From a virus, in the IMG/VR virus record IMGVR_UViG_3300006922_000034, positions 1 to 52,491 of that record: a DNA stretch of 52,491 bases; one strand, 5' to 3'. A model generated the notes under the pieces. That model was not told the DNA's origin, ran no database searches, and worked only from the letters and a program-made list of their open reading frames with translations. Numbering within the stretch: position 1 is the first letter of the stretch; each line of letters starts with the position of its first letter. Below, piece after piece: positions 1 to 35,200 of the stretch. The translations under genes and the position numbers were made by a program.

Positions 1-61
1 CGTTCCTTCGGTTCTATTACCTACTTCCGTCGTCGCTCTACATTTAGAGTGGCGATGAACG
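1..61 (-). ncRNA. Glutamine (glnA-type) riboswitch aptamer, second of a tandem pair
   Basis: Read on the minus strand, this segment has the parts of a glnA/Downstream-peptide aptamer. A closing stem pairs CGUUC with GAACG. An upper hairpin CUCUA-AAUG-UAGAG follows, with an outer UCG/CGA pairing. Then come the core string CGGAAGUAGG, a short P3 stem GGU...ACC, and the 3' core CGAAGGAACG. The two core strings and the three-helix order agree with what I know of the glutamine riboswitch family from cyanobacteria and marine metagenomes. The regulated gene must lie to the left of the window, so whether it acts on transcription or translation cannot be seen. Family recognition is from memory, not from a covariance-model search. 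Confidence 0.82.
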
Positions 62-68
62 AATGTGG

Positions 69-126
69 CGTTCCTTCGTCAGAATTGACTACTTCCGTCC
101 ACTGCTACATTTAGAGTGAATGAACG
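69..126 (-). ncRNA. Glutamine (glnA-type) riboswitch aptamer, first of a tandem pair
   Basis: This is the promoter-proximal copy. On the minus strand it shows the closing stem CGUUC/GAACG, a P2 arm with inner CUA-AAUG-UAG, the core string GGACGGAAGUAG, a P3 hairpin GUCA-AUUC-UGAC and the 3' core CGAAGGAACG. Stem sequences differ from the second copy while pairing is kept (P3 is GUCA/UGAC here and GGU/ACC there), which supports RNA structure rather than a simple DNA duplication. The linker between the copies is only 7 nt (62-68). Confidence 0.82.
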
Positions 127-147
127 ATGTAATTTGCATTACAATAT

Positions 148-155
148 TATTTATC
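148..155 (-). promoter_or_regulatory. T4-type late promoter in front of the tandem riboswitch
   Basis: The minus strand reads GATAAATA. By T4 spacing (octamer at -13 to -6) transcription would start near 142, about 16 nt before the first aptamer. It therefore drives the riboswitch leader and the unseen gene to the left, not gp23, which lies upstream. Confidence 0.7.
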
Positions 156-180
156 AATGTATTATGAAATACCAGTCAAA

Positions 181-206
181 AAAAAGGACTCCTGAGAGTC
201 CTTTTT
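181..206. terminator. Strong intrinsic terminator after gp23
   Basis: An 11-bp stem (181-191 with 196-206) closes a CTGA loop. The A-rich left arm and T-rich right arm give a U-run on either strand, so it can act in both directions. It sits 40 bp past the gp23 stop codon and before the late promoter at 148-155, so it separates the capsid transcript from the riboswitch transcript. Confidence 0.88.
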
Positions 207-247
207 AATGTTTCGGTTAGAAACTGTTCTAATAAGTCTTTTAAGGC

Positions 248-1393
248 TTACTGGAATGCAACGTTGGACAATGTAATTGCATCAACGTAATCTGCCGCGT
301 TACCCAATGAACTTGCTGTGTTAGTAAGTTCTTTGTAACCATATCTTGTCATAAATGACACTACTGGTTCAAATGTGCTTGGGTCCATTACTGGGCCTGT
401 GCTCATTAATGGGATATAAGGACAATAGAATGCTGGAGCATCAGTTTCGCTTGATCCTTTGTAACCAACTAGTACTTTAGTACCGTCAGCCGCATAGTTA
501 TCTACGAATACTTTGATTGTTCCGTTTAAAGTTCCAACAAACTTAGTGTTTGTAGGTGCTTCAAATGAACCTTCTGTTGTTCTTGCGAATGTTGAAGTTG
601 ACGCACTTTGTAGGATTGTCAATGCTTCAGGTGATACAACGATATAGTTACCAGCACCACGTCTTGTTCTAGCCGCGATTCTGTTAGCCGCTCTGTTGAT
701 CTCAATAGCCAATATAGCATGTCTGTCACCAACGTATGTAGGTGTTCCAGTTACTGTATTTGCTGTAAAGTCAAGTGTTGTACCTGCGCCAGCAAGAGTT
801 CTTAGTGAACCGATAATTTCTTGGTCGATTTCAACTACGATTTCTTGTGCTAATGCCTGCATAATTTCTGCTTCAACGTCAACGCCGTGCATAGATTCTG
901 CATCTTGAGCCGCCTCAAAAGTCCATCTTGCTGATAACCTTCTGGTTTTCGCTTCAACAGTTTCTTTTAAGATTTGAATGCTCATTTTTCTACCTGGGTT
1001 ACCCTCAGCCGCCGCTGTAGCGTCTGGAGATCCAGCATATGTAGAAGCAAGTTTGAAAGGACTTAAAGCCTCATCACCTGCTGTTGCTCCACCACCAGTT
1101 TCAGAATATCTGACTCTTAGTGTATGGATTTGCCCTACTGGGCCAGTCATTGGTTGTACACCAACTAGTTCGTTTGCGATTACGGAAGGCATAACCCTTC
1201 TAATCAAAGGTAACATAACCTTGTTTAATGTTGCTACTGAACCAGCACCTGTGGCACCTGCTGTTGCGGCCTCTGACAAATGTCTCTTTGTATTTTCGAG
1301 GACGACATCTAAAGAAGATTTTCTGTTTCCAGATAAGCCTTCAAGCAAAGCATCTTTAGTTGCTGACCAGTTGCTTTCAAATAAGTTCGCCAT
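248..1393 (-). CDS. 23: Major capsid protein gp23
   Basis: 381 residues. Builds the hexameric shell of the T4-like head. Recognised by overall sequence (for example RRGAGNYIVVSPEAL and the C-terminal PVVSFMTRYGY segment) and by its place after genes 20, 67, 21 and 22. The N-terminus looks like a cleaved propeptide. The best match to the T4 prohead protease rule (L/I-X-E) is L39-S40-E41, with the small-residue run AATAGATGAG after it, which would leave a mature protein of about 340 residues. The start is supported by AGGAG seven bases upstream. The gap to gp22 is 15 bp, so it is probably cotranscribed with 22 and 21. A strong terminator follows it. Confidence 0.93.
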   Translation of the reverse strand: MANLFESNWSATKDALLEGLSGNRKSSLDVVLENTKRHLSEAATAGATGAGSVATLNKVMLPLIRRVMPSVIANELVGVQPMTGPVGQIHTLRVRYSETGGGATAGDEALSPFKLASTYAGSPDATAAAEGNPGRKMSIQILKETVEAKTRRLSARWTFEAAQDAESMHGVDVEAEIMQALAQEIVVEIDQEIIGSLRTLAGAGTTLDFTANTVTGTPTYVGDRHAILAIEINRAANRIAARTRRGAGNYIVVSPEALTILQSASTSTFARTTEGSFEAPTNTKFVGTLNGTIKVFVDNYAADGTKVLVGYKGSSETDAPAFYCPYIPLMSTGPVMDPSTFEPVVSFMTRYGYKELTNTASSLGNAADYVDAITLSNVAFQ

Positions 1394-1408
1394 TTTTTAA
1401 CTCCTAAT

Positions 1409-2521
1409 TTATTTTGAAAGTCCGGCTAGTTTACGGATCATATCTATTTCTACTACATCATCCGCACTCTTGTCATCGGCTTCTGTAATAACAGTCGCCT
1501 TATCGCCAGTGTGTTCACTGACAACGGATTCTGACAATGTCTTCTTTGCTCTTGGTGTTTCACCATCTAAAACTGAAGGCAAGTACTTGTTAAAGGACTC
1601 TTCCAGTTTCTCAGTTTTAACACTTTCAAGTAAGTCTGACATAATTTCTTTCTTCTCTTTACCTAATGGTGCCATAAGTTCATTTAATGTTTCTTTACGA
1701 TTCATTTGATCTTGTGCAATCCTTAATTTAGACTCTACAAGTTTAGTTGCTTCGTCTTTCTCAGCAATTTCTTGCTTAGATTCATTAAGTCTTGATTCCA
1801 TTTCAGTAATTTGTTTTTGTATTTTCTTGATTTCTTTTGCTTCATTCAAGTGGCTCATGCCAAATTCATTTGCAAATGCTTCAAAAATTCTGCGACCGAA
1901 GTCATTTTCACGAGCTTTAGTAATATCATCACGGAAAGATTTAACTTCATTAACAATTACACCATTAACAACGTTTTCAACTTTGTCTGCGGCTTTCTTA
2001 ATAAAGTCTTTCTTGGCTTCTGCTAATTGCTTCTTGCCTTCTCTTACCATTTTAACTTTTTGTTCTACTAAAGATTTTTTATCTTCGTGGAACTCAGATA
2101 GTTCAGTTGCTAATTGCTCTGCTACAAAATTATCTAATTTTGCAACATGCTCACTAGTTCTATCTCTATCTGCTCTAAGTTCTTTAACTTCCTTTGCAAC
2201 CATTTCAGTTACAAATTTATCAAGTACTTTAGAGTGCTCACTAATTGCTTTGTGATACTTTACTCGATCACTTGCTAGGGCAGTTTTTTCTTCTGCAATA
2301 GCGGAAATTTCTGCTTCAACTTTTTCAGAAATAAAGTTGTCAACTGCTTCTACGATTTGACTTTTGTCATGATCGTATCGCTGTGCAAACTCTTCTCTAA
2401 GTTCCGCAGTAAGTTCTTCTCTTGCTTCAGAAATTTTACCTTCCCAGGCTTCTTGAAGAGCAGACTTAACATCTTCTGTTAATTCCGCGTTCTCAAGTAG
2501 TTCTGTAAAATTCACTGTCAT
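1409..2521 (-). CDS. 22: Prohead core scaffold gp22
   Basis: 370 residues, rich in Glu, Lys and Ala, with long predicted coiled coil from about residue 20 to 270. That is expected of the main scaffold around which gp23 assembles and which gp21 later digests. The N-terminus (MTVNFTELLENAELTEDV) and the C-terminal IDMIRKLAGL tail are as I recall them in marine T4-like gp22 proteins. It is longer than T4 gp22 (about 270 residues). It lies between protease 21 and capsid 23 with 13- and 15-bp gaps. Identification rests on composition plus strict synteny. Confidence 0.87.
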   Translation of the reverse strand: MTVNFTELLENAELTEDVKSALQEAWEGKISEAREELTAELREEFAQRYDHDKSQIVEAVDNFISEKVEAEISAIAEEKTALASDRVKYHKAISEHSKVLDKFVTEMVAKEVKELRADRDRTSEHVAKLDNFVAEQLATELSEFHEDKKSLVEQKVKMVREGKKQLAEAKKDFIKKAADKVENVVNGVIVNEVKSFRDDITKARENDFGRRIFEAFANEFGMSHLNEAKEIKKIQKQITEMESRLNESKQEIAEKDEATKLVESKLRIAQDQMNRKETLNELMAPLGKEKKEIMSDLLESVKTEKLEESFNKYLPSVLDGETPRAKKTLSESVVSEHTGDKATVITEADDKSADDVVEIDMIRKLAGLSK

Positions 2522-2534
2522 AGTAGTCTCCTAC

Positions 2535-3158
2535 TTATATTTTTAATTCGTTGATGAAACCAGTGATTGCTTTCATCAAGTGTTTCTCTGCACTTTTATC
2601 ATGTGTTAATGCAGAAGCAGTCTCAAACATTTGAGCGCCGCCTCGCATATTAAATAAACTCTCATATATAGTTTTTGGATAGGCATCAGGTGCACTTGGT
2701 TGTGCCACAATGTCCACTGTTACAATATCAAAGTCGCTGACCTGTCCACTTCCGCCGACATTTCCGCTACCTCTACTGCTTACACCAAGATTTGCTCCTG
2801 CAGTTAATAATGCTCTTGCTATATTACCCATCGGTGTATCTATAATTTTAAGTTTTCCAAGACCGTTTGCATCTTCACAATACATGTCAGTAATTATATG
2901 ACTAACACGGTCTAAATTTATTTGTAATTCTTCAGGGTGATCTAACTCACCCATCACAGTCTCGCCTTTTGACAAACGAGTCTTTACACTATCAACAGCC
3001 TTTTGTATCTCATCCTTGGGATATACTCTACCATTTTGGTTTTTTACATCACCTTGAATGAATAAACCAGCCATAAATAAGTCTTTACCATCTTTGGATT
3101 CCATTACCTGGACTCCAGATTGCTCAGGACTTAAATATTCGTATAGTTTATTGGCCAT
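2535..3158 (-). CDS. 21: Prohead core protease gp21
   Basis: 207 residues. Serine protease of the T4 gp21 family that processes scaffold and capsid proteins inside the prohead. The family landmarks are present: an early FIQGDVKNQNGRVYP segment, the histidine in GELDHPEEL and the serine block LGVSSRGSGNV, followed by DFDIVTVDIVAQPSAPDA. The length agrees with T4 gp21 (about 212). AGGAG lies upstream of the start. It is in the conserved slot between the core proteins and gp22, consistent with the LSE cleavage motif in gp23. Confidence 0.93.
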   Translation of the reverse strand: MANKLYEYLSPEQSGVQVMESKDGKDLFMAGLFIQGDVKNQNGRVYPKDEIQKAVDSVKTRLSKGETVMGELDHPEELQINLDRVSHIITDMYCEDANGLGKLKIIDTPMGNIARALLTAGANLGVSSRGSGNVGGSGQVSDFDIVTVDIVAQPSAPDAYPKTIYESLFNMRGGAQMFETASALTHDKSAEKHLMKAITGFINELKI

Positions 3159-3183
3159 TGTTTACTCCTATCAGTAAAAAGAC

Positions 3184-3975
3184 TTACGCCTTTTTAGGTT
3201 CAACGTTAATGTTGTCTGATGGTGTGTGATCTTTAGCAGATTCGCCTTTTACGCCATCGCTACCGTCATTTATAACTGGTGCTTTAACGTCGTTACCAAC
3301 TTTAGTAGGTGCTGGCATTTTCATACCATCTTTAGAATCTTCGTCTCCGCCTTTTGGATCTGCAACTTTATCTGAAAGTTTAGTTGCTTCTTCAACAACT
3401 TCTTCAGAATCAGCAATTTCTTCGTCTAGATCATATTCAACTGATTCTAGATCAAGTTCGTCGCCCATTTCGTCTGCGTCCATTTCTGCTTCTTCGCCGT
3501 CTTCCATGTCGCCTTCTTCGTCTGCTAACAATTTTTCGAATTCTGCTTTTAATTCTTCAAGTTCGTCCTCAAGATCGTCGACTTTATCTTCTAAGTCGCC
3601 TTCTTCTTTTGGCTCGTCTTCTTCTTCGTCTGCTTCAAAAGTATCTGCTTCGATTTCTTCTTCATCAGCTCTAATTTCATCTTCTAAAGATGCAGTTTGA
3701 TCGATTTCTTCTTCTACTGCTTCTTCTTCAGTTTCAGCAGTTTCTTCTACTGCTTCTTCTTCTGATTCTTCTGATTCCTCAACTGCTTCTTCTTCTGACT
3801 CAGTTGCTTCTTCAACTTCTTCTGCATCTGCTGATGAATCTTCATCTAAAATGTTTTCATATTCAGCTCTTGCTTTTGCAACAACATACTCATGAAGCAT
3901 TTCTTCTGCTTTTTCATTCTCTTCAGCAAGGAGAAGTTCAAGAATTTCTTCTAATTTGTTTCTTGATTCTGACAT
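3184..3975 (-). CDS. Highly acidic prohead core-like protein in the gp68 position
   Basis: 263 residues, about a third of them Glu or Asp. A low-complexity region at about residues 50-110 has imperfect EEAVEE/SEESEEE/ETEEE repeats. The position between gp67 and gp21 is that of T4 gene 68, a prohead core protein, but T4 gp68 is only about 141 residues and I see no clear sequence match. The role as a core component is therefore inferred from position and charge. I chose the Met at 3975 over the one four codons upstream (3987), because the best ribosome site (GGAG, six bases before the ATG) overlaps the longer version. The C-terminal half is richer in Lys, Asp and Gly. Confidence 0.7.
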   Translation of the reverse strand: MSESRNKLEEILELLLAEENEKAEEMLHEYVVAKARAEYENILDEDSSADAEEVEEATESEEEAVEESEESEEEAVEETAETEEEAVEEEIDQTASLEDEIRADEEEIEADTFEADEEEDEPKEEGDLEDKVDDLEDELEELKAEFEKLLADEEGDMEDGEEAEMDADEMGDELDLESVEYDLDEEIADSEEVVEEATKLSDKVADPKGGDEDSKDGMKMPAPTKVGNDVKAPVINDGSDGVKGESAKDHTPSDNINVEPKKA

Positions 3976-4095
3976 TGTGGTCTCCATTTGAAAATTATTT
4001 TACAGGTCACAGATATAGTCATCCGTGATACTGCTTGTTTAGTACTTAGTGGTATGTTGTGTTTTTATGTTAAAAACGGTGTGAATCTGATCATT

Positions 4096-4107
4096 TTGAT
4101 CAAAATT
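4096..4107. repeat. 12-bp perfect palindrome in a leader region
   Basis: TTTTGATCAAAA is a perfect inverted repeat in the 190-bp gap between gp67 and the acidic core gene. It is just downstream of the late-promoter-like octamer at 4127-4134 on the minus strand. It could form a short hairpin in the 5' leader or bind a dimeric protein. No T-run follows, so it is not a clear terminator. Confidence 0.35.
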
Positions 4108-4126
4108 GATGTATTTTACTATTATA

Positions 4127-4134
4127 TTTATTTA
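4127..4134 (-). promoter_or_regulatory. Possible late promoter for the acidic protein-21-22-23 unit
   Basis: The minus strand reads AATAAATA, one base off the GATAAATA form seen at the other late sites. It lies in the only sizeable gap of the capsid cluster, about 150 bp before the acidic core gene, with a predicted start near 4121. Weaker evidence than for the GATAAATA sites because AT-rich matches are common. Confidence 0.45.
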
Positions 4135-4165
4135 ATCCTTAAAAAGGATAAACTAGTATAAAACT

Positions 4166-4363
4166 TTAAATACCTGCCTGTGTAGGGTTAGCATACATTA
4201 CTTTTTGGAACTTTGCATGTTCCAAATCTTCTGCACGTTTAATTTCTTTTGCTTTTCTTAATTTACCTAATGCTTCTAATGTAAGTTTAGGAGACCTAGA
4301 ATCCTCTTCGTTTCTTTTAACGAATTCGTCAAATTCAGGATTGTAAAATTCTACTAGTCTCAT
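4166..4363 (-). CDS. 67: Prohead core protein gp67-like
   Basis: 65 residues, basic and helical. It begins MRLVEFYNPEFDEFV and contains LTLEALGKLRKAKEIKRAE. T4 gp67 is a small (80-residue) prohead core protein encoded directly after portal gene 20. This gene has the same place, and its first base overlaps the last base of gp20 (TAATG-type coupling). The identification comes from position, size and the N-terminal motif shared with marine T4-like phages. Its precise role in core assembly is taken from T4. Confidence 0.72.
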   Translation of the reverse strand: MRLVEFYNPEFDEFVKRNEEDSRSPKLTLEALGKLRKAKEIKRAEDLEHAKFQKVMYANPTQAGI

Positions 4364-6087
4364 TATATCTCCGTAGTACCAGGTGGAACTTCTGCTCCAG
4401 TACCAGGTACATCAGTATTTATGCCTAAGTCACCTTCTGGAGCATCTTCTATTCCAGGAACTGCCGCAGGGTCTAACTCAGTATCTAAATTTACCGCCGC
4501 ATCTGAATCAGGTCTTACTCCGATATTTCTTAAATCCATATTCTTAGAATCGTCAACAAATTTTCTATAGTCGTTCTCTTTACGCCATAGTGCTTCATTA
4601 TCTTTCATTTCATCTTCTGATAAACCGAGATATTTCTTCATTTTAAATTGATTTGCTAAGTGTGGACTAGCGGCCAATGTGTTATACAAATTCGCTCTTT
4701 CTGTATCTAATTGTAAATCTCTATAAGAACTAAAGTTCATTGGTTTATTAAATGTAATAAAGAACTCTGAGGAATCTATCTCAATACCTCTGTGTTTTAA
4801 AAACATTTTAAACTCTGTATCCATATCTTCTTGTATTTGCTTTTGCAGTCTTTCAACATATCTAGCAAATCTATATTCTTGAATATATGCAATACCAACT
4901 TTACCGTCATTATAAACACTACTTCCGTCTTCTGGTCCAGTTGGTAAGTAAGAACTTGGAACTCTTAGTCCTCTTAATAGTTTATTATTAAAGTATCTTA
5001 AATCGTCTATTTGTCCTAGGTTTTCACCGCCTGGTAAAGTATCAACTTTAGAACCTCTACCGTCTGCCGTTTGTGCAAAGAAGTAGTCTTCTAACATACT
5101 CATAGGGTTATAGGCCGAATCTGCAACACTAGTGCCGTCTGACTTCTTATTAGGCACACGTTTTTGTTGTACTTCATATTTGACTTGTTCTAAATACTGT
5201 CTTGCTTTGTGAGGTGGCATATTACCAACATCAATCATAAACACACGTCTTTCAGGTGCTCTATGTACCCTATATATAATAATAGAGTCTTCTAATAATT
5301 CTTTTTGTTTAAATACTTTAAATATAGGCTCTAGAATACTAATTCCAAAAGGCCAACTATGGTCCATGCCCTCTGTTAAACTTACATGTACAACATGTTC
5401 TGCATCTACAGGAACACCTTGATCAACACCATCTATTGCTCCAGTCATATAATTACCTGCTTGACTGTTTACAGAGCTCATTGCCGCATTTAATCCTTGT
5501 CCGCCTCCATAAGGTCTACTATGTAGAGCCGCTGGATTAGTTGCTATAAGTTCTTCAAAGTTAGGTGCTAATTGTTTAACAAAATATGTTTCAATTTTTT
5601 TACCATCAGATTCGTTTACTACAACTTTCTCTATATTTGCAGGATCTGTCCAGTATAATTTAAATGTTTCAGGGTCTCTAATAAAGAATTGATCACCGTA
5701 TTTTATAGTACTACGGAATATTCTAAATGCTCTTTTATGTAATTCGTTGAGTCTACACCATTGAGTTAATGTTTTACTTAATATCTTTTGTTCTGTATCA
5801 GTTGGATCAGTTGTATAGTTTAATTCAAATGGTAATCCACCATAATCATCTTCCTGTGTACCAAATTCTGCAATAGTATCAAGAGCGGCATTAATCTCTA
5901 AATCGTTATCCATTTGATCGTACTGGATATATCGCATAAGTCTATTAGGACTTCCTGCATATACTTCAGGTAGCCAACTGGCATATCTGCTGGTTGCGGC
6001 ACCGACACCACGTTCAGAATTGTTGCTTTGAACATTAAGTGGTAGTCCACTGTTATCAACAGATGTAAAGTATTTTTTCCAACTCAT
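4363..6087 (-). CDS. 20: Portal vertex protein gp20
   Basis: 574 residues, close to the T4 length (524). Forms the dodecameric portal through which DNA is packaged and to which the neck attaches. Family segments are clear: ASWLPEVYAGSPNRLMRYIQYDQMDNDLEINAALDTIAEF (about residues 37-76), YRVHRAPERRVFMIDVGNMPPHKA in the middle, and LPGGENLGQIDDLRYFNNKLLRGLRVPSSYL after it. This is the gene commonly used as a marker for marine T4-like phages. A late promoter (6117-6124) sits 30 bp upstream, with AAGGAA as the ribosome site. gp67 follows with a one-base overlap. Confidence 0.95.
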   Translation of the reverse strand: MSWKKYFTSVDNSGLPLNVQSNNSERGVGAATSRYASWLPEVYAGSPNRLMRYIQYDQMDNDLEINAALDTIAEFGTQEDDYGGLPFELNYTTDPTDTEQKILSKTLTQWCRLNELHKRAFRIFRSTIKYGDQFFIRDPETFKLYWTDPANIEKVVVNESDGKKIETYFVKQLAPNFEELIATNPAALHSRPYGGGQGLNAAMSSVNSQAGNYMTGAIDGVDQGVPVDAEHVVHVSLTEGMDHSWPFGISILEPIFKVFKQKELLEDSIIIYRVHRAPERRVFMIDVGNMPPHKARQYLEQVKYEVQQKRVPNKKSDGTSVADSAYNPMSMLEDYFFAQTADGRGSKVDTLPGGENLGQIDDLRYFNNKLLRGLRVPSSYLPTGPEDGSSVYNDGKVGIAYIQEYRFARYVERLQKQIQEDMDTEFKMFLKHRGIEIDSSEFFITFNKPMNFSSYRDLQLDTERANLYNTLAASPHLANQFKMKKYLGLSEDEMKDNEALWRKENDYRKFVDDSKNMDLRNIGVRPDSDAAVNLDTELDPAAVPGIEDAPEGDLGINTDVPGTGAEVPPGTTEI

Positions 6088-6116
6088 TTATTAATTTCCT
6101 TAATAGTATATTACAC

Positions 6117-6124
6117 TATTTATC
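6117..6124 (-). promoter_or_regulatory. T4-type late promoter for gp20
   Basis: The minus strand reads GATAAATA. The predicted start at about 6111 gives a leader of about 24 nt before the gp20 ATG, containing AAGGAA. It lies in the gap after the tape-measure gene. Confidence 0.75.
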
Positions 6125-6156
6125 AGGAGTTGTCAACTATTTTGTGGGATATTGAA

Positions 6157-8730
6157 TTAGACAACTGTCTTAGTCTTAAGACCTGAAGTAATTATTTCTG
6201 TTATTTGTCTATTAAGTCTTTTATTTTCTGCTAAGATAAGAGTTAATGCTTTAGTTTCTGTAGATTCTTGGTCTAGTTTATTGATTTCAGATACACTTAG
6301 TGGACCACTACCACTACCATTAGGATTGGTCATTTGTTCTAAGTATCGTACATTTAAAGTACTTGTTGTTGGACCTGCTAAATTAGGTGATGTAATATTG
6401 GAAACCCTTTGTGAGTTCTTGGTTTTTTCTTTTTCGTCCCTATTTCTTCCTATTGAACCACCAATTAAATTACCAATTCCAGCACCTATAGACGCACCAA
6501 TGACCGTGCCTAATCCAGGAATTACTGAGCCTATGATACCACCTATTAATGCTCCTGTACCGCCTCCAGCAAGTCCGCCAATGTTCTCGCCGGTTGCTCC
6601 ACCATCTGAACCAGAAACTATATCATATCCATCTTTTAAAACGTAGGCTCCTGCAAGATATGGTGTAGCACGAGATGCCATACCACCCATTCTTTTAAGG
6701 AATCCTTTTCCTTTTCCGCCACCAGGCATTGGACCAACAAATCCTCCTCCGGCACTCATGGCCGCCGCCGCAACAAATGCCTGACCTGCGGCAAAGGCCG
6801 CCGCCTGAAAGAATCCTGTTATTGCGGCTGTCACACCTACAAAAAGTAAAAGAATACCCGCTATTGGTAATAACGTACCCCAAGGAAGATTGGTCAATGC
6901 AATCTTCATACCTTCCATGAATAAGCCTATGAATTCTCCTATAAACGTGCTTATTGCTCCACCTATATCTAATTCTCCATCTTTACTTAAAGCACTGATT
7001 ATTCTTTGAACTTTTTCTATAATGTAGGTAGTAAGTTTAACTAAGCCTTCAACTATATTAGTAATAAGTTTACCATAATCTCCGTCTGGGGCAAGTTCTT
7101 TAAGTGTATTTGCTAATGCGGCTCCTATATCTTTTCCTGCCTTACCCAAGGCACTATTAAGAACACTAACTCCGCCTTCTTTGCCAACAAATACATCGAA
7201 TAAAGCATCAAAACTACTTCCCATTTCTTTTGACATTTCTACAGGAATCGAATTTAATAATCCACTATAACCACCACGAACACTTTTTATAATATTATCA
7301 AATCCAGTTGTTATTTTTTGTACTTCTGAAATTTGCATTCCTGTACTACTTGCAAGTTTTTGCAATCTTTCTCTGGCCACACTTGCTTCTTGTTGCATTG
7401 TAATAATTATACTTGCAGTTTCCTGCATAGGGTGGCCTTGCAATCCTGCTATAACACTTAGTTGTTCTAACTGATCCTTATTGAGGTCAGCGGCATCAAC
7501 TAAATCTTGTATTGCATTTGGAACATCTTCTACGCCTAAACTACCTGATCTTAAATCACTTGCTAAATTTTGGAATGCACTATTTAAATTACCACCTAAA
7601 GGTATTAGCATGTTAGCAAAATCACTAATTGCACTAACACCTGTACCAGAAACAGTTAGTAATGCATCACCTAATGCTTCACCACTCTCAGGGAACACCG
7701 CAACAAGTCCTGCAACTAAATCTTTTGCTACTGTATTTAATGTTGTAGCATTAGGAGTATTTAAGGAATTCGTAAAACCTATAAAGGACTTATTAGATTC
7801 CATCACACTTGCCGCTGTTTGCCTTAATGCATCTGTACTTTGTCCAAGTATGGCAGAGAATCCCCTTAAATTTTGTATACTTTGTTGAGTAAGTTGAGCT
7901 GTAATGCTTGTATCTATTTTGTCTTTGTTTAATGTACGAGCTCTAAATTCTTGATCTTGTAAGAATAGTTCAGTTGCTTCTTCTAATGTTACACCTAAAT
8001 CGGTACCACCTCGTGTAAGTTCTAAAAAACTTCTGCTTAGATTTGCAAGGTTTGTTTGTCCCAACGTACTCATTGCTCTTGAATATGTTTCCAGTGATGC
8101 AACTGCTTGTTCTGTTGTTAGACCCATTCTATTTAATAATATAATATTTTGTTCTGTAGCATTATTTCCTGTACCTAATTGGTCTCCAAATGCCTGACCG
8201 GTATCAGTAAGTGTTCTTAAACTATTACCTAGATTAGAAAATGCACTTCCCACTATACCAACTGATGTACCAAATACTACTGCAATTCCTTTAATTGCAC
8301 TAACAATTAAATCTCCAGCAAATCGTCCGCCCTTTGTGGCCCCTTTAGCAAATGCTTGGCCAATCTCCTCTTCGTACTTTTCTCTATCTGCCTTTTGTTG
8401 GTTTAAAGATTTGATTAATTCATCTTGTCTTTGTTTTGCGAGCCTTTCCGCCTCAGACATCGTTTTGTTTAAATCTTCTGCATTTTTTTCATTGGTCTCA
8501 TTACCTTTCTTTTGAGTGTCCAGTGATTCTTTATACAGTTTGGCTAATTCTTTTAAACCTTTTTTATTTTCAGTATCAGATTCAGATATTGCTGTTACAA
8601 GACCCTCCATAACATCTCTAACTGTTTTATCTAACACATAGGGAGGCAAATTGGCAGAATACGAACCCCCTGCCCCATCAAGAGAATTAATCGATGCTGT
8701 AAAGTTCTGTCCTGATGTTTTGTCTGCCAT
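6157..8730 (-). CDS. Probable tail tape-measure protein
   Basis: 857 residues. Features typical of tape-measure proteins: a charged coiled-coil N-terminal part (about 60-130), long alanine/threonine-rich helical middle, a strongly hydrophobic stretch (about 612-655, including LLPIAGILLLFVGV) and a glycine-zipper membrane segment (about 713-760, with repeats such as GALIGGIIGSVIPGLG). Such proteins set tail length and may insert into the host membrane during DNA ejection. I see no direct similarity to T4 gp29, so the call is from architecture. Its location is unlike T4, where gene 29 follows 27 and 28. It is divergent from gp26/gp51, which are candidate tape-measure chaperones. The start has only a weak ribosome site. 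Confidence 0.68.
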   Translation of the reverse strand: MADKTSGQNFTASINSLDGAGGSYSANLPPYVLDKTVRDVMEGLVTAISESDTENKKGLKELAKLYKESLDTQKKGNETNEKNAEDLNKTMSEAERLAKQRQDELIKSLNQQKADREKYEEEIGQAFAKGATKGGRFAGDLIVSAIKGIAVVFGTSVGIVGSAFSNLGNSLRTLTDTGQAFGDQLGTGNNATEQNIILLNRMGLTTEQAVASLETYSRAMSTLGQTNLANLSRSFLELTRGGTDLGVTLEEATELFLQDQEFRARTLNKDKIDTSITAQLTQQSIQNLRGFSAILGQSTDALRQTAASVMESNKSFIGFTNSLNTPNATTLNTVAKDLVAGLVAVFPESGEALGDALLTVSGTGVSAISDFANMLIPLGGNLNSAFQNLASDLRSGSLGVEDVPNAIQDLVDAADLNKDQLEQLSVIAGLQGHPMQETASIIITMQQEASVARERLQKLASSTGMQISEVQKITTGFDNIIKSVRGGYSGLLNSIPVEMSKEMGSSFDALFDVFVGKEGGVSVLNSALGKAGKDIGAALANTLKELAPDGDYGKLITNIVEGLVKLTTYIIEKVQRIISALSKDGELDIGGAISTFIGEFIGLFMEGMKIALTNLPWGTLLPIAGILLLFVGVTAAITGFFQAAAFAAGQAFVAAAAMSAGGGFVGPMPGGGKGKGFLKRMGGMASRATPYLAGAYVLKDGYDIVSGSDGGATGENIGGLAGGGTGALIGGIIGSVIPGLGTVIGASIGAGIGNLIGGSIGRNRDEKEKTKNSQRVSNITSPNLAGPTTSTLNVRYLEQMTNPNGSGSGPLSVSEINKLDQESTETKALTLILAENKRLNRQITEIITSGLKTKTVV

Positions 8731-9731: not shown

Positions 9732-9929
9732 GTGGCATATCTTGGGAGGCTGAAAAAAGAAACAGACGCCCTAGAAAAAAATATTTGTGAACTTGTGATT
9801 TATAGCGGAGGCTCAATTGCATGGAACGATGTTTGGTATATGTCAACTCCTCAAAGAACTTTATTAGGTAAAACACTAGAAAATATGCTTAAACAAAAAG
9901 CAGGCAAAACTGTAACAGATGAACTCTAA
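9732..9929 (+). CDS. 51: Baseplate hub assembly catalyst gp51-like
   Basis: 65 residues from the only available start, a GTG at 9732. The core KKETDALEKNICELVIYSGG followed by SIAWNDVWYMSTPQR resembles gp51 of marine T4-like phages. T4 gp51 is also encoded next to gene 26 and is a catalytic factor for hub assembly. The frame stays open upstream through the gp26 stop to 9681 and encodes a natural-looking helix (SEPEEIVAYLGRL) that a GTG start would cut. There is no ATG and only weak AGAAGAGA upstream. It may therefore be made mainly as a gp26-gp51 frameshift product, or use a non-standard start. Its stop overlaps the next start (TAATG). Confidence 0.68.
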   Translation: MAYLGRLKKETDALEKNICELVIYSGGSIAWNDVWYMSTPQRTLLGKTLENMLKQKAGKTVTDEL

Positions 9930-10348
9930 TGTCTTGGTTATATAATAACAAAGAAATTACCGAACTTCCAGAAGAATGCGAAGCCTTCGTATATATTATC
10001 ACTAACCTAACAAACAACAGAAAGTATGTTGGTAAAAAGTTAGCAAAATTTAAAACTACTAAACCGCCATTAAAAGGCAGAAAAAATAAACGTCGTGGTA
10101 CGAAAGAAAGCGACTGGAAAACATATTGGGGTAGTAACGATCATTTAAAAGCAGATGTGATAGAACTAGGAGAAGACTCTTTTACAAGAGAAATATTGCA
10201 CTTTTGTCCTAGTAGAGGTGTTGCAAGTTACTTAGAAGCACAAGAACAGTTTGAAAGAAAGGTATTACTTACTGACGATTATTATAACGGAATAATCAAT
10301 GTAAGGGTAGGCGGCTCAGAAATCCTTAAAGAAGCATTGACAAGTTGA
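9929..10348 (+). CDS. GIY-YIG-like nuclease-domain protein
   Basis: 139 residues. The N-terminal region reads FVYIITNLTNNRKYVGKK, a variant of the GIY-YIG pattern (V21-Y22-I23 and Y33-V34-G35). It is followed by a very basic loop (residues 35-60) and a candidate catalytic glutamate, E103 in YLEAQEQFE. Proteins with this layout occur as conserved genes in marine T4-like phages. Whether this one is a homing-type endonuclease or a repair/packaging nuclease cannot be decided. It is cotranslated with gp51 by a one-base overlap, which argues for a conserved phage gene rather than a recent insertion. A large structured non-coding region follows it. Confidence 0.6.
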   Translation: MSWLYNNKEITELPEECEAFVYIITNLTNNRKYVGKKLAKFKTTKPPLKGRKNKRRGTKESDWKTYWGSNDHLKADVIELGEDSFTREILHFCPSRGVASYLEAQEQFERKVLLTDDYYNGIINVRVGGSEILKEALTS

Positions 10349-15077: not shown

Positions 15078-15947
15078 TTAATCGTTTATATCACTTTGTG
15101 CAGATGTTTCTGCCGCTTCTCTTATCTGTCTCATTTCTTCTTCATGAGCAATCTGTCTGCCATAACTAGGTAGGTGTCCTTGTTCTATAAGGATGTCATC
15201 TCTAATCATTTGATTTCGTTTTTCTAAATTTAAAATTCTAGTAAAACTATTATTTACTGCGGCAGTATAATATGCAAACGGGTTATCAGATTTTGCTTCA
15301 TTAAACTGTAGGCCTATTTGGCTAAGTTGAACCAATGCTTGTCCACGCATTTCGTCTACATAAGTGTAGCCTCTCCAGTTTGCTCTGTGACTATACCTTT
15401 CAACTAGTTTTAAAAACATTGTACCTAACTTATTAGTGATCTTACCATGATCAACACTAAAGTGACCATTGCTTAAACTTCCCTGCCAGTGACTTCTTGC
15501 AACTTCAGTTACTTCACCATTTACATAAGCATAATGTTTAAAAGAAGGAAAGTTTACCTTTGCTTTAGTTTCTGCTTCATTTTTAGGAATTCTTTTCCTT
15601 CCTGGTTCATCTGGAATATGCTCCATGGTCATTACACGGAATACTAATTCTTCCTGTGGAATACTTTTTGGGTCAACTGCAAACTCTTTCTGTTTTGGTT
15701 TATTTTTATAATCCTTAGGATCATGATCAGCCATTGCGGCTTGGTAACCAATTGACTGCATTAAAGAAGCACGATTTTCTCTTGCTAATTTAATACTGTT
15801 TCTATTAATTTTATTCACATCTTGCAAAATAACATCATACTTTGCATACATTTCATCTGTAACATAACAGTATGTCATTTTACTTTTATGGATTTCTTTT
15901 AGAATATCTTTATTATTAAGATAATTTACTTTTTTAGGCTGTGCCAT
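15078..15947 (-). CDS. 55: Late-transcription sigma factor gp55
   Basis: 289 residues, longer than T4 gp55 (185). The extra length is an N-terminal extension of about 150 residues. The region from about 165 to 265 carries the family core: KLGTMFLKLVERYSHRANWR, GYTYVDEMRGQALVQLSQIG, and NPFAYYTAAVNNSFTRILN, corresponding to sigma region 2, which contacts RNA polymerase and the -10 octamer. gp55 recognises TATAAATA in T4. Here the expected sites read GATAAATA. AGGAG precedes the start. An early sigma70-type promoter upstream fits its need to be made before the late genes. Confidence 0.9.
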   Translation of the reverse strand: MAQPKKVNYLNNKDILKEIHKSKMTYCYVTDEMYAKYDVILQDVNKINRNSIKLARENRASLMQSIGYQAAMADHDPKDYKNKPKQKEFAVDPKSIPQEELVFRVMTMEHIPDEPGRKRIPKNEAETKAKVNFPSFKHYAYVNGEVTEVARSHWQGSLSNGHFSVDHGKITNKLGTMFLKLVERYSHRANWRGYTYVDEMRGQALVQLSQIGLQFNEAKSDNPFAYYTAAVNNSFTRILNLEKRNQMIRDDILIEQGHLPSYGRQIAHEEEMRQIREAAETSAQSDIND

Positions 15948-27700: not shown

Positions 27701-29256
27701 CAGGTACTTTACAATATGGAAACTTAGAAGATAACAATTATCTTTATGCAACTGACATTACTGCTGTTACAAGTACAGATAAGATTAGAGTAAGATACGA
27801 AAATTACAAACAACGTCTTACAGAAAACATAGATTGGCATATTGTTGACACGTTCAAAGAAGCAGATGGATATACTGATCCTTCAAAAGTTATTGTTGCA
27901 CCTTTTGACACAGATAACGACCTAGTACCTGATAAACCATTGCAATTTAAAGATTTTGTTGGGGAAGAAGATTTAGTATTTTTAGAAAACTATTTAGACT
28001 ATGATGGGTACACATACGAACGTCCAGCATCTGGTGGAATTTTAGATCTTAGAGAAGAAATAGATGTAGATATTATAGGTTCAGGCACAACTGCTACAAT
28101 AAGTCCTAAAACTTATACAAACAATATAGCATTTAGTGATCTTAATTGGTTAGTTGTTGACGCATACAATATAGTAACATCCAAATTAAATAATACTGAT
28201 GGTTATGCATCAGGCTTAAAAGTATATGTTGCTGATATAGATAAAATATACCTAATGACACCAAGTAGTACTAATTCAGAACATGTAAACGCAGTAGAAA
28301 CTACAGATTGTGCGGTGTACAATGGAAGAGGTATGACACAAAACAGTTTACTTCCTGAAATAACACCTATGATATTTAAATGGGAACATGTTGCAAATAA
28401 AGATGTAAGAATAGATCCTAGTATTAGTAATGTAGTAGAAATGCTAGTACTAACAAAAAACTATTATGAAGATATTAAAAAATATATTAATGTTCCAGGA
28501 ACAATTTATCCTCTACCACCGACTTCAAACGAATTAGCAACTGAGTTTGCTGAATTAGAAGAATTCAAGAGTGCTAGTGATACTATAATATATAGAAGTG
28601 GTAAATTTAAAAAGATATTTGGTAGTGATGCAAGTCCTGAACTACAAGCAAAATTTAGAATTGTAAAATTGAACGAAGGTATAAGTGATAACGAACTAAA
28701 GTCCAAAGTAATTACAGCATTTAATCAATACTTTGATGCAACAAACTGGGACTTCGGCGAAACATTTTATTTTACAGAATTATCTAGTTATGTACATTCT
28801 CAACTAGCAGGATTGCTAGGTAGTTTAGTTATATTACCAAGAAATTCTACAGGTAAATTTGGAGACTTGTTCTCTGTTAAGGCAGAGGCAGATGAATTGT
28901 TCTTAAATACGGCAACAGTTGCCGATATAGAAGTTATAGATAAAATATCTAGAACAACATTGTCAGGTTCTACATCAGGATCAGTATATACAACAAACAA
29001 TGCATCAGCAAGTACAGGTCCATATGCAATTAACGGATATTATCCTTTGTATTCAAACGAAACAAATTCAAATAATGCAGGAAACGGTACAAGTCATACT
29101 CATGTATTTTACGGAACAACTTTTTACATGCCTAACGGTTTAGTTATGGGCTCAACAATGTTCCATGGCACATATACAGGAAATGTAAGTACAACAACTA
29201 ATACAACCAGTAGCAGTGGCGGGTCCGGCTCTGGTTCAAACGGAAGTGGTTATTAA
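24733..29256 (+). CDS. 6: Baseplate wedge protein gp6-like, greatly enlarged
   Basis: 1507 residues, against about 660 in T4. The N-terminal domain is clearly gp6: DTLRLAMVNYIRTNFPENFN, SEFIAIIELLAFLSQALAFR and RRESVFKLARMLGYNPRRNTAASG (residues about 35-120). The second gp6 landmark, LESIKQRAPQTYFTQNRMIS, lies near 415-435. A long beta-rich insertion (about 500-1170) follows, and then a part resembling the gp6 C-terminus (LNEGISDNELKSKVITAFNQYF). The end is a GTSHTHVFYGTTFYMPNG motif and a Gly/Ser tail. gp6 forms the continuous ring of the baseplate. Coupled to gp25 and to the next gene by TAATG overlaps. Confidence 0.87.
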   Translation: MALSQRQTNLFAAEDWKIAYKAFNNVDFTSYDFDTLRLAMVNYIRTNFPENFNDYIESSEFIAIIELLAFLSQALAFRMDLNSRENFLETAERRESVFKLARMLGYNPRRNTAASGLVKIKSIKTTEPLIDSLGANLSNKQVFWNDVNNPESYEQFITILNSAFSNTNRFTSPIKKGVVGGITTELYRITKQISASQTFPYTLNVNGISRNFEIVDGDFLNGKYFYERHPDPLNNLGLFYRNDGKGLDSSNSGFFMMFKQGTLSFSDFNFNTPIPNRVADLTSSNINETDVWVQEINTSGAVISKWIKIPNTVGQTLNYNSQAFGTRNLYATENLDNDGVRLKFPDGNFGNMPNGIYRTWHRTSDGVSYSLQPDDARNITINVPYENRNGSPYTMTITLALQNAVNNSLPTESLESIKQRAPQTYFTQNRMISSQDYNVFPFAKSSNIQKLSAVNRTHAGHSRYIDINDPTGTLQNIDLFADDGFLYKMDKTTNVSTVISGNNTANNVVENILPLYFKNQNLNNYVYDSFRDKWKKYKTNSFDIESLGVKWNPLPVKLTGTTGYFTETSSAGAAGTEKVLTNTFVSFKQFQENNFLKLVNPSDMTEYKWVRITKESNAGLLSSGLSTSTGPWTLSSSVPTGWRVTEVIVTLRKKLQGSELPDVQAQMENKKTFGIGFAPTNITDGLLADQWYVIENANLDKTSKFDVSNAGSKNNTPDDASWLILFEYEAVDLNSYRYNVTIRGEQYVFNSKEDIKFYNVKNIKVLDSDNKANTDKISITTFNNQPGSSETFRWYLDGTGSTGNKWFSEETGTVTDPNQYKLELPLRSRDTNWYDIEIDWISNFGILRGEGSAKANVISKDLFVNDATVTLNTYFDDGVSPELSGNMTVANNMGRVSRIPGKINVSFTNATFGYNIFDGSGNITYKAYNPTTSQVEIYHGNTMVNGFSNANSDVYSYGTAGTTVPIAHGGSGTNYRGNVQLVEANLSAKTGTLQYGNLEDNNYLYATDITAVTSTDKIRVRYENYKQRLTENIDWHIVDTFKEADGYTDPSKVIVAPFDTDNDLVPDKPLQFKDFVGEEDLVFLENYLDYDGYTYERPASGGILDLREEIDVDIIGSGTTATISPKTYTNNIAFSDLNWLVVDAYNIVTSKLNNTDGYASGLKVYVADIDKIYLMTPSSTNSEHVNAVETTDCAVYNGRGMTQNSLLPEITPMIFKWEHVANKDVRIDPSISNVVEMLVLTKNYYEDIKKYINVPGTIYPLPPTSNELATEFAELEEFKSASDTIIYRSGKFKKIFGSDASPELQAKFRIVKLNEGISDNELKSKVITAFNQYFDATNWDFGETFYFTELSSYVHSQLAGLLGSLVILPRNSTGKFGDLFSVKAEADELFLNTATVADIEVIDKISRTTLSGSTSGSVYTTNNASASTGPYAINGYYPLYSNETNSNNAGNGTSHTHVFYGTTFYMPNGLVMGSTMFHGTYTGNVSTTTNTTSSSGGSGSGSNGSGY

Positions 29257-32200
29257 TGGCTAAAATTTATAAACAATTACCTGAAGTTCTACAGACTGAG
29301 GCTAATAAAAACTTTTTTGAAACAACTGTTGAACAATTATTCAGTGCATCAAATATAGAAGTTATTACTGGATTTTTAGGAAAGCAGGATTCTGCAAACC
29401 ATAATTCAGATGGTTCTTATATTAGAGAAGCAACAGCAACAAGGCATCATTATAGTTTATCTCCAGCAGTTAATAATTTAAATACAACAACTGGTACAAG
29501 TGAAAACTTTATTTTTTATGATGAATTAGTTGACACATTAAGTATTTCAGGCGTAAACACAAAAAACCATAATAGATTATTTGCTACAGAATATCAAAGT
29601 TTCTTACCTCCAATTGACATAGATAAATTTGTAAACTATCAGGAATACTATTGGAGTAATAATGATTTACCATCTATTACAATAAATGGTACATTAACAA
29701 ATCCAATTGACATAGATACAGAAGTATTAGGCAAAAAGAATTTTACCTCACCTAACGGCATTACATTTAAAAATGGTATGGTAGTAACCTTTGGTGGTCA
29801 ATATGTTATACCAGAAAATAAAACTAATAAAGATTTTTATGTAGAAGGTGTAGGCGAAAGTATTACATTAGTTCCTAAAGTACAAAATATTGGTTCACCA
29901 TATGCTATTGCTATTTTAAATAGTTGGGATAATACTAATTTTACAGAAGCAGACAGTAATGTAAAATACACCGCTGGAAATATATCATCAGTTGTTATAT
30001 CTAACCCTGGTATTGGTTATGTGAATCCAACAGTAAGTTTTACAGGATCAAATACCACACTTGCAACAGCAACAGCGAATGCTAATGCCATTGGATCTAT
30101 ATCAGATGTTACAGTTACAAATTCAGGTGCAAATTATAGTGGCCAAATAAATTTAGTTTTAAATAGTGATACTATTTCTACAAATATTAATACAGCAGTC
30201 ACTTATGTAGACTTCTTTGATAACGATCTTAAAACCATTCCTACACCATACAAAGTTTTAGCAATTAACAGCACTACTAATGTAAAAGAAGGACAACTAG
30301 CAACAGTAGACGGACAAAGTAGTTTAGTAGAATCAACTACTACCTCTGCAATACAATCTATAGACAATGTTGTTGCTCGTTATGATACTAGTAGAGCAGG
30401 TGGTGTTTATACAGCATCAGGCACAACAAGTGGCACAGGATCAGGACAATCATTTAGAGTCACAGTAATAGGTGAGACAAAACTTTTAAGTATACATAGT
30501 GTAAATGACAGTTATTCAACATGGTCATCAAATACAGCAATTAAAACAGCAAGAACATCTATTGTTAAAGATAATGTTGCAAGTACATCATCAGGAAACG
30601 GTACCGGAGCAACTTTCAAAGTTGTTTATGATAACTTTAGTGGTAATAGTCCTCATGTAGCAGTATCAGTTGTAAATGGCGGAACAGGCTACAGAAGAAA
30701 CGACACAATTACTTTAGCCGGTAGTAGTATAGATTCTGTTGGTGGACCAAACATTACATTTAAAGCATATGAAATACAAAAACCACAAGGCATAACAGCA
30801 GTAGCAGGTGTAACACTTAGCAATAGTAATGTAACAGGTACACATATCGTTGACATGACTAACTTAGGCCATATAGGTAATATATCAACAAGTGCAAATG
30901 GTGTTGATGCTATTTTTAAAGTAGTTGCAGACGGTAATGGCAATGCAGTTGTAACAATTATTGACGGTGGTATTGATTTTGTTGACAACGAAACAATTAC
31001 CATTAATGACGGACTGTTAGGAAGTAATAATTCAGGAACACTAATATTCAATGTAAGTGATGTAATTACATTCGGTGATACTAATATAGAACTTTTAAAC
31101 GGTGGTAGTGGTCATGCAGTAAACGATGTAATTACAATTACAGATGCTAATTTAGGAAGCGGTGGCGGAAACGATCTTAAATTTGATATTGCTAGGACTG
31201 GAGATATCGTAGTATTAGATAATCCTGTAATATTAGACCAAACCTCAAATTCAGCGATATCATTTGTGGGTAGAGGTGCAGAATTCCAGATTAGAACAAG
31301 TATGTTCCAACTAACATCAAATGTAGATGGAACATTTATTTCTGGACTATCCTCTATGGCACTAACTGGTGTAGATCCAGTTACTGGAAAATTTTATTTA
31401 GGTGGGTCGCCTGACACAAACGAAGATTTCGGTTGGGATAGAGATGCCGATGGTGATGGCGATGGTGATGCAATATGGGGAGGTAAGACAGCACAAGAAA
31501 GTCCAGACTATAATGTATTACAAAGAGGAGCCACCAACAGAAATATTTGGAGCAGAATTAATTTTTGGCACCACAGACAAAACTTTTTAGATGCAGGTGC
31601 CACAGTACCTGATAAAAAATATCAAGCAACAAGACCTATTTTAGAATTTGATAAAGATATAGAATTATATAACTTTGGTTATAAATTTGTAGGAGAAATA
31701 TCCGTTGTAAGTAGAACTCTTTCTAAAGTAGAAGTAGACGGATTAGTAACAGGCTCATTAATAGATGATGCCCCACTAAGTGTTGGTACAACAATCATTT
31801 TCCCTAACGATGAACCTATAGTTTCAAAACATGTATATAAAGTTGCTCATGCAGGTGGACTAATAAGTTTATCTAAAGTTGGAGACCCTAATTTAAATCC
31901 TGCAGGAGTTGAAGAAGGAGAAACTGGATTTGTTCCTCTTACATTTATACAAGGAGACCAAGTAAATATTAAAGCAGGTCTATTTGGATATGGTAAAGAA
32001 TACTGGTGGAATAACAATAAATTAGAACTTTGCCAGGTTAAAGAACAACTACATCAAGAACCTTTAATGAAGATGTATGACGATAAAGGTCAAGACTTCA
32101 CAGACGAAGATATATTTCCAAATACATCATTTAAAGGTAATAAGATATTTAACTATAAGATAGGAACAGGTACAAATGATACAGTATTAGGATTCCCACT

Positions 32201-35200
32201 ATCTTTCAAACCTTTTAAAAGTACAAGTGAAATAGAGTTTGAAAACTTTTTAGGTACCGAAGTAGTCAATTCTGGTAATGTCACAAAAACAGATGTTCCA
32301 GGATACTATTATTATAAACTATTAAAACAAACACCTGAGTATCATTCTTATTGGAAAAACTCTGACAATAAGTTTGAACAAGCGATAAAAACATTTTATT
32401 ATGTAAATTCATTTGATGTAACAAACGCATTTAACAAGTTCTTTATAGGATGTAATCCAAAAGTTAATACAGACAATGCTTCTGGATACGACATTAATGT
32501 ATTAGTAAATGGTACACCAAGAACAGATTTTACCTATACATCTAATGGTATAATAGAATTTACAACTTACAACTTTGTTAAAGATGATATCATTGAGATA
32601 AAAGCAATTAGTGATAAAAACGGATTAATAAATGAAAGGTCAATTAGTAAATATGAGACTCCACTAAGTTGGGCACATAATTCTGATAACGAAGACATAA
32701 CAAGTATTTCCGAACCAGAGTATTTACAGCATTTTCAAAACTATATGTCTAACCAAGACGAGTTTACTGGTAATGCATTAGGAAATAATAATTTTAAAGA
32801 TACTAGTAAAAATAGTAAACATGCTAAAGATATTGTTAAAGCAGAAGAAGATTTAAGACTTGCATCATTCTTATTAAATGACCAACCTCATAACCTACTA
32901 GAAGCATTAAGATTTTCAGAGCAAGAATATATTAGATATAAAGGTAGATTAAGATCAGAACTTACAAAATATTTTACAGACTTTGATACAACAGATTTAA
33001 AAACAGATTTTATATTAGAGAAAGTATTAAGAAATGTTGTAACATTTAGTGTTGGTAATAATGTATTCCAACAGTCCTATGTAATTCCCTTTGGAGATAA
33101 CTTTACTGAAGAAGTCTTCACAATAAACTCTATTGATGTTTTAAATTATCAAATAGAAAAATATTTAGACCTCAGCAAAATAGAAAATTCTTTATTAGTA
33201 TACAGGCAACGAGGTACATCTCAAATACTTTTAGATATAGACCATGATTACACTATTACAAATACATCAAACTCCATTACAGTAAACTTATCCAGCACAT
33301 ATGATAATCAACTAGGAGATAAACTTTTAGTAAGATTGTATGATAAGGAAAGAGATAGTGCAGAGTTACCGCCTACACCAAGTACTATGGGAATGTTCCC
33401 TCTGTACGAACCTAAGATTTTAACTGATAATTCTTTTACTACTCCAGTACAATTATTATTAGGACATGACGGAAGTAAATCGGTATTACTAGGTGATACA
33501 AGAGACGACGTATTACTAGAATTTGAAAGAAGAATTTATAACTCTGCTAAGAAAGAATTTAGAAGTGCAAATAGTTTACCAGGATATAATTATACTGATG
33601 TTAAATCAGGATATTTTAGACCAAACAACTTATCGCAAAATGAATGGTTTGATCTATTAAGAAATAGTTTTGCAGACTGGGTACAAAGTAATAATGTAGA
33701 TTATATTAAAAATGAAATATATGATTCCAGTGATGAGTTCACATGGAACTTTAGGGGAACAACTGATTTACCAGGACATTGGAGAGGATATTTTGAATAT
33801 CATTATGATACAGTAAGGCCTCATACACACCCTTGGGAAATGCTAGGATTTACAGAAAAACCTAATTGGTGGGATACTTTATATATTACCTCTACATATA
33901 CAAATTATAGTAGTAACAATGTTCCTATGTGGGAAGATTTAGAAGAAGGTATTATTAGAGACGGAGACAGAGAGAACTTTACATCAGGCTTATATAAATC
34001 CATAACAACAAATCCATACAGAAGAATTGGTTTATCAAACATATTACCAGTAAGTTCAACAGGAACCTTAAAATCTCCATATGATATACAGACTACTGGA
34101 ACAACAACACTTACTAAGGCATACACTAATGCTACAGTAAATAATTCTTTAGGATACCTTACAACTAGTTTCTTATTAACAGACGGACTATCAGTAGGGT
34201 TTGATAGTAGTAATGTTTATGTAACAGGAAAAAACATTCCTAACTATGCAACTACTAAAATTGATACAACCTTAAGTAATGTAAAAGAAGGAAGTGGTAA
34301 TTACAATATACCTAGAGTAGACTTGGTTGCTGTTGCTAATAGCAATGTATCATTAGAGAGTTATGCAATTGGTGTCCTAGTAAATGGTTTACCTTTATAT
34401 AATATCAAAGACAATGCTAGTTGGAACGGAGAAGATGTTTGGCATTATAACAACGAATTTAAAAATAGAAATAGATCAAGTAATACTATTGCAGAAACTG
34501 ATAGTAACGGCGTAACAAAAACTTACCTACCAACTGTTGATATGTCAAGTACATCTGCATGGGGTAATGCAACAACACATTCGGGTATTATAGGCTGGGC
34601 ATTTGACGGATTACCTATTTACGGCCCTTACGGATATTCAGATCCTTTAGATGCTACAAGTGATGTAACAAATATTAAAAGTTCGTTTGTACTTAAAGCA
34701 GGTATAAGAGCAAGTGGACCAGGTGGAGATCATACTGGTGCATTTGTAGAAGACTACACCTGGGATTCTTCCCTAGCAGGACAAGACGGATACGCAGGTA
34801 GATGGAATCAACGAGTTGGTGTAACTCCTGATTCAAGTGGTGCACAAATTAAATATTATGTTTGTACTATAGACGACAGTGGTAAACCAATGTTCCCTTA
34901 CGCAGTAGGCGGTGGAGAAAACAATGACACAACAAATCAAACTGCATTAACATATGGCAACAGATATTATGCACAACCACAAAACAAAGAACTTAATACA
35001 TTGGGCACAGGGTATACCAGTTCAACAGCCACATCAGCAATTACTAGTTCTTATAGCGAAACGAAATCTAATACAGTAGCAATCAACGAAGACTGGAGAT
35101 TTGGTGATGGTGCTCCTGTTGAAAATGCATGGAAATATTCTGAAGCATATCCATTTGCAATTACACAGGCATTGTTATTAGCCAAACCAGGTATGTTCGC

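Follow-up and report, generated by a model that had tools for sequence, protein, structure and literature searches.

Which gene does a T4-like phage keep behind two glutamine-sensing RNAs, and could such an arrangement let it read the nitrogen status of its host late in infection? The question is raised by the left end of the window, by which we mean the whole stretch of DNA analysed, a virus record of 52,491 bases from a T4-like phage. The sequence-only reading had placed there, on the minus strand, two glutamine aptamers (126-69 and 61-1) joined by a 7-nt linker, with a late promoter (155-148) immediately before them and a terminator separating them from gp23. All of these positions proved exact, and the phage has its own late sigma factor. 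The features concerned are:

1 to 61, minus strand: glutamine aptamer 2 (RF01739, 44.8 bits), running off the window into a hairpin that sequesters the Shine-Dalgarno (SD) sequence and a 54-aa gene (L015, positions 7065-7252)
62 to 68, minus strand: linker CCACATT between the aptamers, 7 nt, read from the sequence (6 to 9 nt in relatives)
69 to 126, minus strand: glutamine aptamer 1, with P1 (CGUUC/GAACG), P2, P3 and the cores CGGAAGUAG and CGAAGGAACG (RF01739, 50.1 bits; covariation)
129 to 142, minus strand: 5' hairpin GTAAT-GCAA-ATTAC ahead of aptamer 1 (z-score -4.07)
148 to 155, minus strand: T4-type late promoter GATAAATA (sequence; ATAAATA in the leaders of relatives; late sigma factor in the window)
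178 to 206, minus strand: intrinsic terminator ending the gp23 transcript (GGACTC/GAGTCC stem and T run)
248 to 1393, minus strand: major capsid protein gp23, upstream of the cassette (68.6% identity to gp23 of the PA5oct group)
15078 to 15947, minus strand: late sigma factor, gp55-like (phrog_12791, E 3.9e-96)

By gp23, the nearest isolates are Pseudomonas jumbo phages. Elsewhere in the window, the structural region on the plus strand holds one open frame of 6263 codons (29256-48047), very large for a T4-like phage, and a SegE-type GIY-YIG homing endonuclease (9929-10348, plus strand) is flanked by baseplate and recombination genes.

Both aptamers were recovered by a covariance search (cmscan) with the glnA RNA model above its gathering cut-off of 35 bits, at 128-65 (E 4.3e-8) and at 63-1 (E 1.2e-6) on the minus strand, the latter losing its 3' end at the window edge. 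The Downstream-peptide model (type 2, RF01704), which had also been proposed as a check, gave no match at the gathering threshold in the window, and a type 2 identity was therefore dropped. The two copies had been described as sharing their cores and differing in their helices with pairing retained. This is indeed the case: the core motifs are invariant in both, and the helix sequences differ with pairing preserved. The pattern extends to 38 distinct viral aptamers, where pairs 1-3 of P2 and pairs 1-2 of P3 are paired in 38 of 38, with two to four pair types each, against about 18 to 35 of 38 in a shuffled control for freely varying P2 and P3 pairs; these counts are drawn from related sequences and do not represent independent events. 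P1 is invariant across the viral aptamers, hence uninformative for covariation. Pairing was counted on core-anchored segments, because a MAFFT alignment of the whole leader misaligned the variable P2 loops.

A single leader contains these two complete aptamers, and a single expression platform serves both. A steeper dose response from the predicted tandem is plausible; glutamine doublets have been categorised as pseudo-cooperative (PMC9481103). An extended P2 arm, CACUCUAAAUGUAG, exceeds the Rfam consensus and is nearly identical between phages and SAR86-order bacteria (L001-L023, L102-L128, L261-L265); it is a possible extra tertiary contact.

Transcription of this leader by the late machinery is suggested by the position of the promoter. 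ATAAATA lies 13 to 32 nt ahead of aptamer 1 in all 32 phage leaders examined, and no late promoter precedes the aptamers in any of four bacterial copies. The promoter is predicted from (T/G)ATAAATA upstream together with a phage-encoded late sigma factor. Over the whole window the word ATAAATA is not enriched (9 found, 15.5 expected), and several of the nine are directly upstream of gene starts. The 5' hairpin that follows the promoter occurs in compensated forms in relatives (for example, GTAAC-GCAA-GTTAC), and is possibly a 5'-end stabiliser.

The gene just off the left edge, whose existence had been predicted, was found by extending leftward through overlapping contigs. One of them, L015, is 99.97% identical to positions 1-7065 of the window and continues past its edge; the overlapping contigs that give the gene are 99.5 to 100% identical, and two others agree with L015, so that chance or an assembly artefact is excluded by independent contigs. 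Window position 1 is the last base of the P1 of aptamer 2, exactly where the contig stops, and the near-duplicate aptamers may have caused the assembly to break there. Beyond aptamer 2 come CAUCUUUGUAAAAGGAGAUGAC, the ATG of a 54-aa gene (MTNQTALIKRAVKLALRREQRKSVMQEKMFPRSVTRPERKSDLPLYITDNPFYP), a terminator, a second late promoter and a 1308-aa tail-fibre-like gene. Because the 54-aa gene is directly behind aptamer 2 and is followed by a terminator, the riboswitch would control one small, free-standing, monocistronic gene for a basic protein. A lysis or structural gene as the target is ruled out. The proposal that the phage senses nitrogen for assembly or lysis thus does not hold as it was worded: the gene encodes neither kind of protein, and belongs to a family shared with SAR86-order chromosomes.

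The peptide itself has a pI of 10.6 and ends in YITDNPFYP. It has no Pfam match at E 1 and no detectable DUF4278 or IF domain; PHROG holds no relatives, no homologue was found among PDB structures (best E 0.21), and sequence homology to IF7 or IF17 was not detected. AlphaFold predicts a helix over residues 3-29 with a low-confidence tail (mean pLDDT 71, pTM 0.33), a model that we considered too weak for a fold search. Three members of the family (L115, L118 and L125) carry a central YRGVRY motif, as in DUF4278 proteins, and are possibly mosaics; members with this motif match phrog_5049 weakly (E 0.008).

How widespread is the arrangement among viruses? Two adjacent cores were sought in 2.9 million viral contigs and found in 21, all of which have a small ORF after the cores; cmscan confirmed the aptamers in every one. 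Searching viral contigs with the peptide gave 39 that encode it, every one with an aptamer directly upstream (34 tandem; 4 single, in L134 and L137-L139; 1 truncated). What recurs is a cassette made of late promoter, aptamers, SD hairpin and a peptide ending in YITDNPFYP. Neither peptide nor leader occurs in the 50,697 phage records of INPHARED, that is, in no isolated phage there. Among 52 relatives whose gp23 is 90% or more identical and whose contigs extend far enough downstream, the cassette is missing from 47 (90 to 96% identity) and present only in the 5 closest (97 to 100%); the cassette-free relatives have an empty site or other cargo, such as a 215-aa protein (MKTLFNIENG...) or a 124-aa protein, both seen downstream of gp23 in L051, L052, L075 and L091. 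The site downstream of gp23 is an insertion hotspot. In L137-L139, where gp23 is only 32% identical, the cassette is again right after gp23, and in many other phages it is located elsewhere. From its absence in 47 of these 52 phages, whose capsid genes are nearly identical, we conclude that the cassette behaves as a mobile, self-contained, late-expressed insert.

Related units are found in bacterial chromosomes. Tandem glutamine aptamers are common in marine bacteria: a genome scan detected them in at least 120 stretches; among the matches listed, most precede amtB-like and glnA-like genes and others precede small basic proteins, the gene names being assigned by eye from protein starts. The small-protein genes of SAR86 have the same SD hairpin as the cassette, and in four SAR86-type genomes searched whole (G001-G004) the sole glutamine riboswitch found stands ahead of a small basic protein of a similar kind. 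A profile built from the phage peptide detected homologues in 5 of 121 SAR86-order genomes sampled, one of them truncated at a contig end; these homologues have the tandem aptamers and the SD hairpin and are surrounded by housekeeping genes, and one lies on a contig of 313 kb. The same profile gave no homologue in any of 667 other genomes (wider class, 369; SAR11 order, 162; SAR116 order, 136), in searches that had no internal positive. On six SAR86-type chromosomes (L181, L200, L246, L180, L223, L146), tandem aptamers and the same SD hairpin precede a different basic peptide ending in FFPYYL, between which and the phage peptide homology was not detected. Other marine bacteria (L155, L234, L253, L242) have tandem aptamers before basic peptides of 35 to 38 aa, with CACC/GGTG or CACT/AGTG hairpins.

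One aptamer 1 sequence is shared, over 58 nt and without a difference, by phages and SAR86-order bacteria, and the phage and bacterial leaders are up to 88% identical. The simplest reading of these likenesses is that phages captured the cassette from SAR86-type hosts and that the promoter was exchanged. Transfer from bacterium to phage is the likely direction. The shared cassettes suggest a SAR86-type host, against which stands the closeness of the capsid protein to Pseudomonas jumbo phages among isolates. A SAR86-order genome bin (G077) contains two T4-like contigs whose gp23 is 70 to 71% identical to that of the window (L266-L269), hinting at host range; the cassette was not found on these contigs where read.

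How would glutamine control the small gene? Its ribosome-binding site is covered by the SD hairpin, CAUCUUU-GUAAAA-GGAGAUG, of which pairs 1-4 are paired in 28 of 28 distinct platforms through stem variants CATC/GATG, CATT/AATG, CAATC/GATTG, CACC/GGTG and CACT/AGTG. The mean helix length is 6.4 bp, whereas shuffled sequences average 2.7 and reach at most 3.5, and folded alone the hairpin reaches -6.3 kcal/mol (z -4.18). The first C of its 5' arm, invariant in the 28 platforms, is the base right after P1, and its loss costs the hairpin 1.8 kcal/mol. In the numbering of the crystallised construct, we take C60 to be the base directly 3' of the P1 3' strand. The published structure of the glutamine riboswitch shows G23 entering the base of P1 on ligand binding and pairing there with C60 (PMC11477058), and in cyanobacteria glutamine riboswitches of both type 1 and type 2 are reported to act as activators (PMC6316151). 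Late RNA polymerase would transcribe a leader comprising the two aptamers, the SD-burying hairpin, the 54-aa gene and the terminator. When glutamine is scarce, the hairpin, itself shown by covariation and energy, would presumably hide the SD sequence; glutamine on aptamer 2 would draw the first base of the hairpin into the G23-C60 linchpin pair, loosening the hairpin and turning translation on. We infer this ON step from the published structure and the cyanobacterial glutamine-ON switches. The part of aptamer 1 is probably to make the response steeper or larger. The energy argument for the switch is local only, because nested folding of the whole leader did not return the aptamer fold as the minimum; with C60 withheld in the model, most SD bases remain largely paired.

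We consider it probable that the cassette came from a SAR86-type marine bacterium, was placed behind a T4-type late promoter and works as a translational switch that glutamine turns on. The opposite sign is improbable, though it has a physical basis: the SD hairpin follows P1 immediately, and coaxial stacking between the two could make an OFF switch, in which glutamine stabilises P1, P1 stacks on the hairpin and translation is shut, so that a shortage of glutamine would let the peptide be made. Tandem aptamers also precede glnA and amtB in other marine bacteria, and repression by glutamine is expected of these genes from nitrogen physiology. However, among the matches listed, the glnA and amtB leaders lack this SD hairpin, and the linchpin pair would take its first base. 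Moreover, the characterised glutamine riboswitches ahead of small regulatory proteins are ON switches (PMC6316151, PMC11288750). That the unit is a decayed or neutral passenger, moved with phage DNA and of no functional use, would agree with its dispensability, most close relatives being without it, but selection is indicated by the conserved peptide ends, the compensatory changes in three sets of helices and the late promoter that every phage copy has, which makes this reading very improbable.

Under the favoured ON switch, the small protein would be made late and only with plentiful glutamine, and probably acts on host nitrogen assimilation, with glutamine synthetase (GS) as the leading, if speculative, candidate target. 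A more specific version, by analogy, would make the peptide a glutamine-gated GS inactivator, functionally like IF7 or IF17, acting on a GSII-type enzyme of the host. The basic peptide, with a pI of about 10 and a predicted helix followed by a low-confidence tail, is compatible with it. SAR86-type genomes with the module have a short, divergent, GSII-like GS (323-341 aa), and GlnE is missing in 14 of 15 bacterial genomes tested that have the small-protein module, an absence that is only suggestive in incomplete genomes. At a related phage locus (L005), the same tandem leader is followed by a DUF4278 protein (E 3e-9). The GS inactivating factor IF17 has DUF4278 as its N-terminal part, and it is chiefly genes for this domain that glutamine riboswitches control in cyanobacteria (PMC6316151). 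The YRGVRY motif of some family members and their weak phrog_5049 match go in the same direction. However, the peptide has no sequence homology to IF7, IF17 or any Pfam family, the DUF4278 part of IF17 is dispensable for inhibition (PMC6316151), and what a phage would gain from turning GS off late in infection is not evident. The inactivator is a fair guess, its odds clearly below even. A broader scenario, which we rate as unlikely, is that T4-like phages have in common with SAR86-type bacteria a small GS inhibitor protein gated by glutamine, which in proteobacteria lacking GlnE would correspond to the IF system of cyanobacteria, and that the phage captured sensor and inhibitor together and fires both late, so as to steer the flow of host nitrogen while virions are assembled.

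Few phage riboswitches are known, and the genes they regulate are mostly unclear; the present locus offers a concrete and testable case of a phage that may read host glutamine late in infection. It suggests that a complete host unit of sensor and effector passes between chromosome and virus and keeps its RNA control, only the promoter being swapped. It also defines a small-protein family absent from Pfam, and makes SAR86-type bacteria the suggested hosts of a T4-like group that is abundant but uncultured. The sole riboswitch before a small basic protein in G001-G004 hints at widespread peptide-based nitrogen control in SAR86-type bacteria.

Has such a case been described before, a point that the sequence-only reading had left undecided? 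Glutamine riboswitches in phages are on record (PMC9004378, PMC9964418), as are tandem ones (PMC2864571, PMC9481103); the components are of known kinds, whereas the cassette, the peptide family, the link to SAR86 and the mobility appear new. The aptamers have the three-helix fold and core of the glutamine-I riboswitch (glnA RNA, RF01739), score above its gathering threshold, and belong with its catalogued doublets (PMC2864571, PMC9481103), but here they lie on a phage late transcript, share one SD hairpin and precede an uncharacterised small-protein family. The riboswitches of Melnitz, Mosig and Prochlorococcus phage AG-345-P14 (PMC9004378) and of cyanophage S-CREM1 (PMC9964418) likewise place a glutamine aptamer in marine myoviruses, that of Melnitz at the tmRNA gene; in the portions read, these reports describe no cassette of tandem aptamers and small protein. 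Cyanobacteria have gifB/IF17 and DUF4278 genes that glutamine-ON riboswitches control (PMC6316151). These resemble the window in that a glutamine riboswitch lies in the 5' UTR of a gene for a small basic protein, whereas the window's peptide is without a detectable DUF4278 or IF domain and occurs in phages and SAR86-order bacteria. Finally, like phage morons and auxiliary regulatory cassettes with their own promoter and terminator, the unit is an optional insert, here between gp23 and a tail fibre gene; unlike them, it brings a metabolite-sensing leader copied along with its gene.
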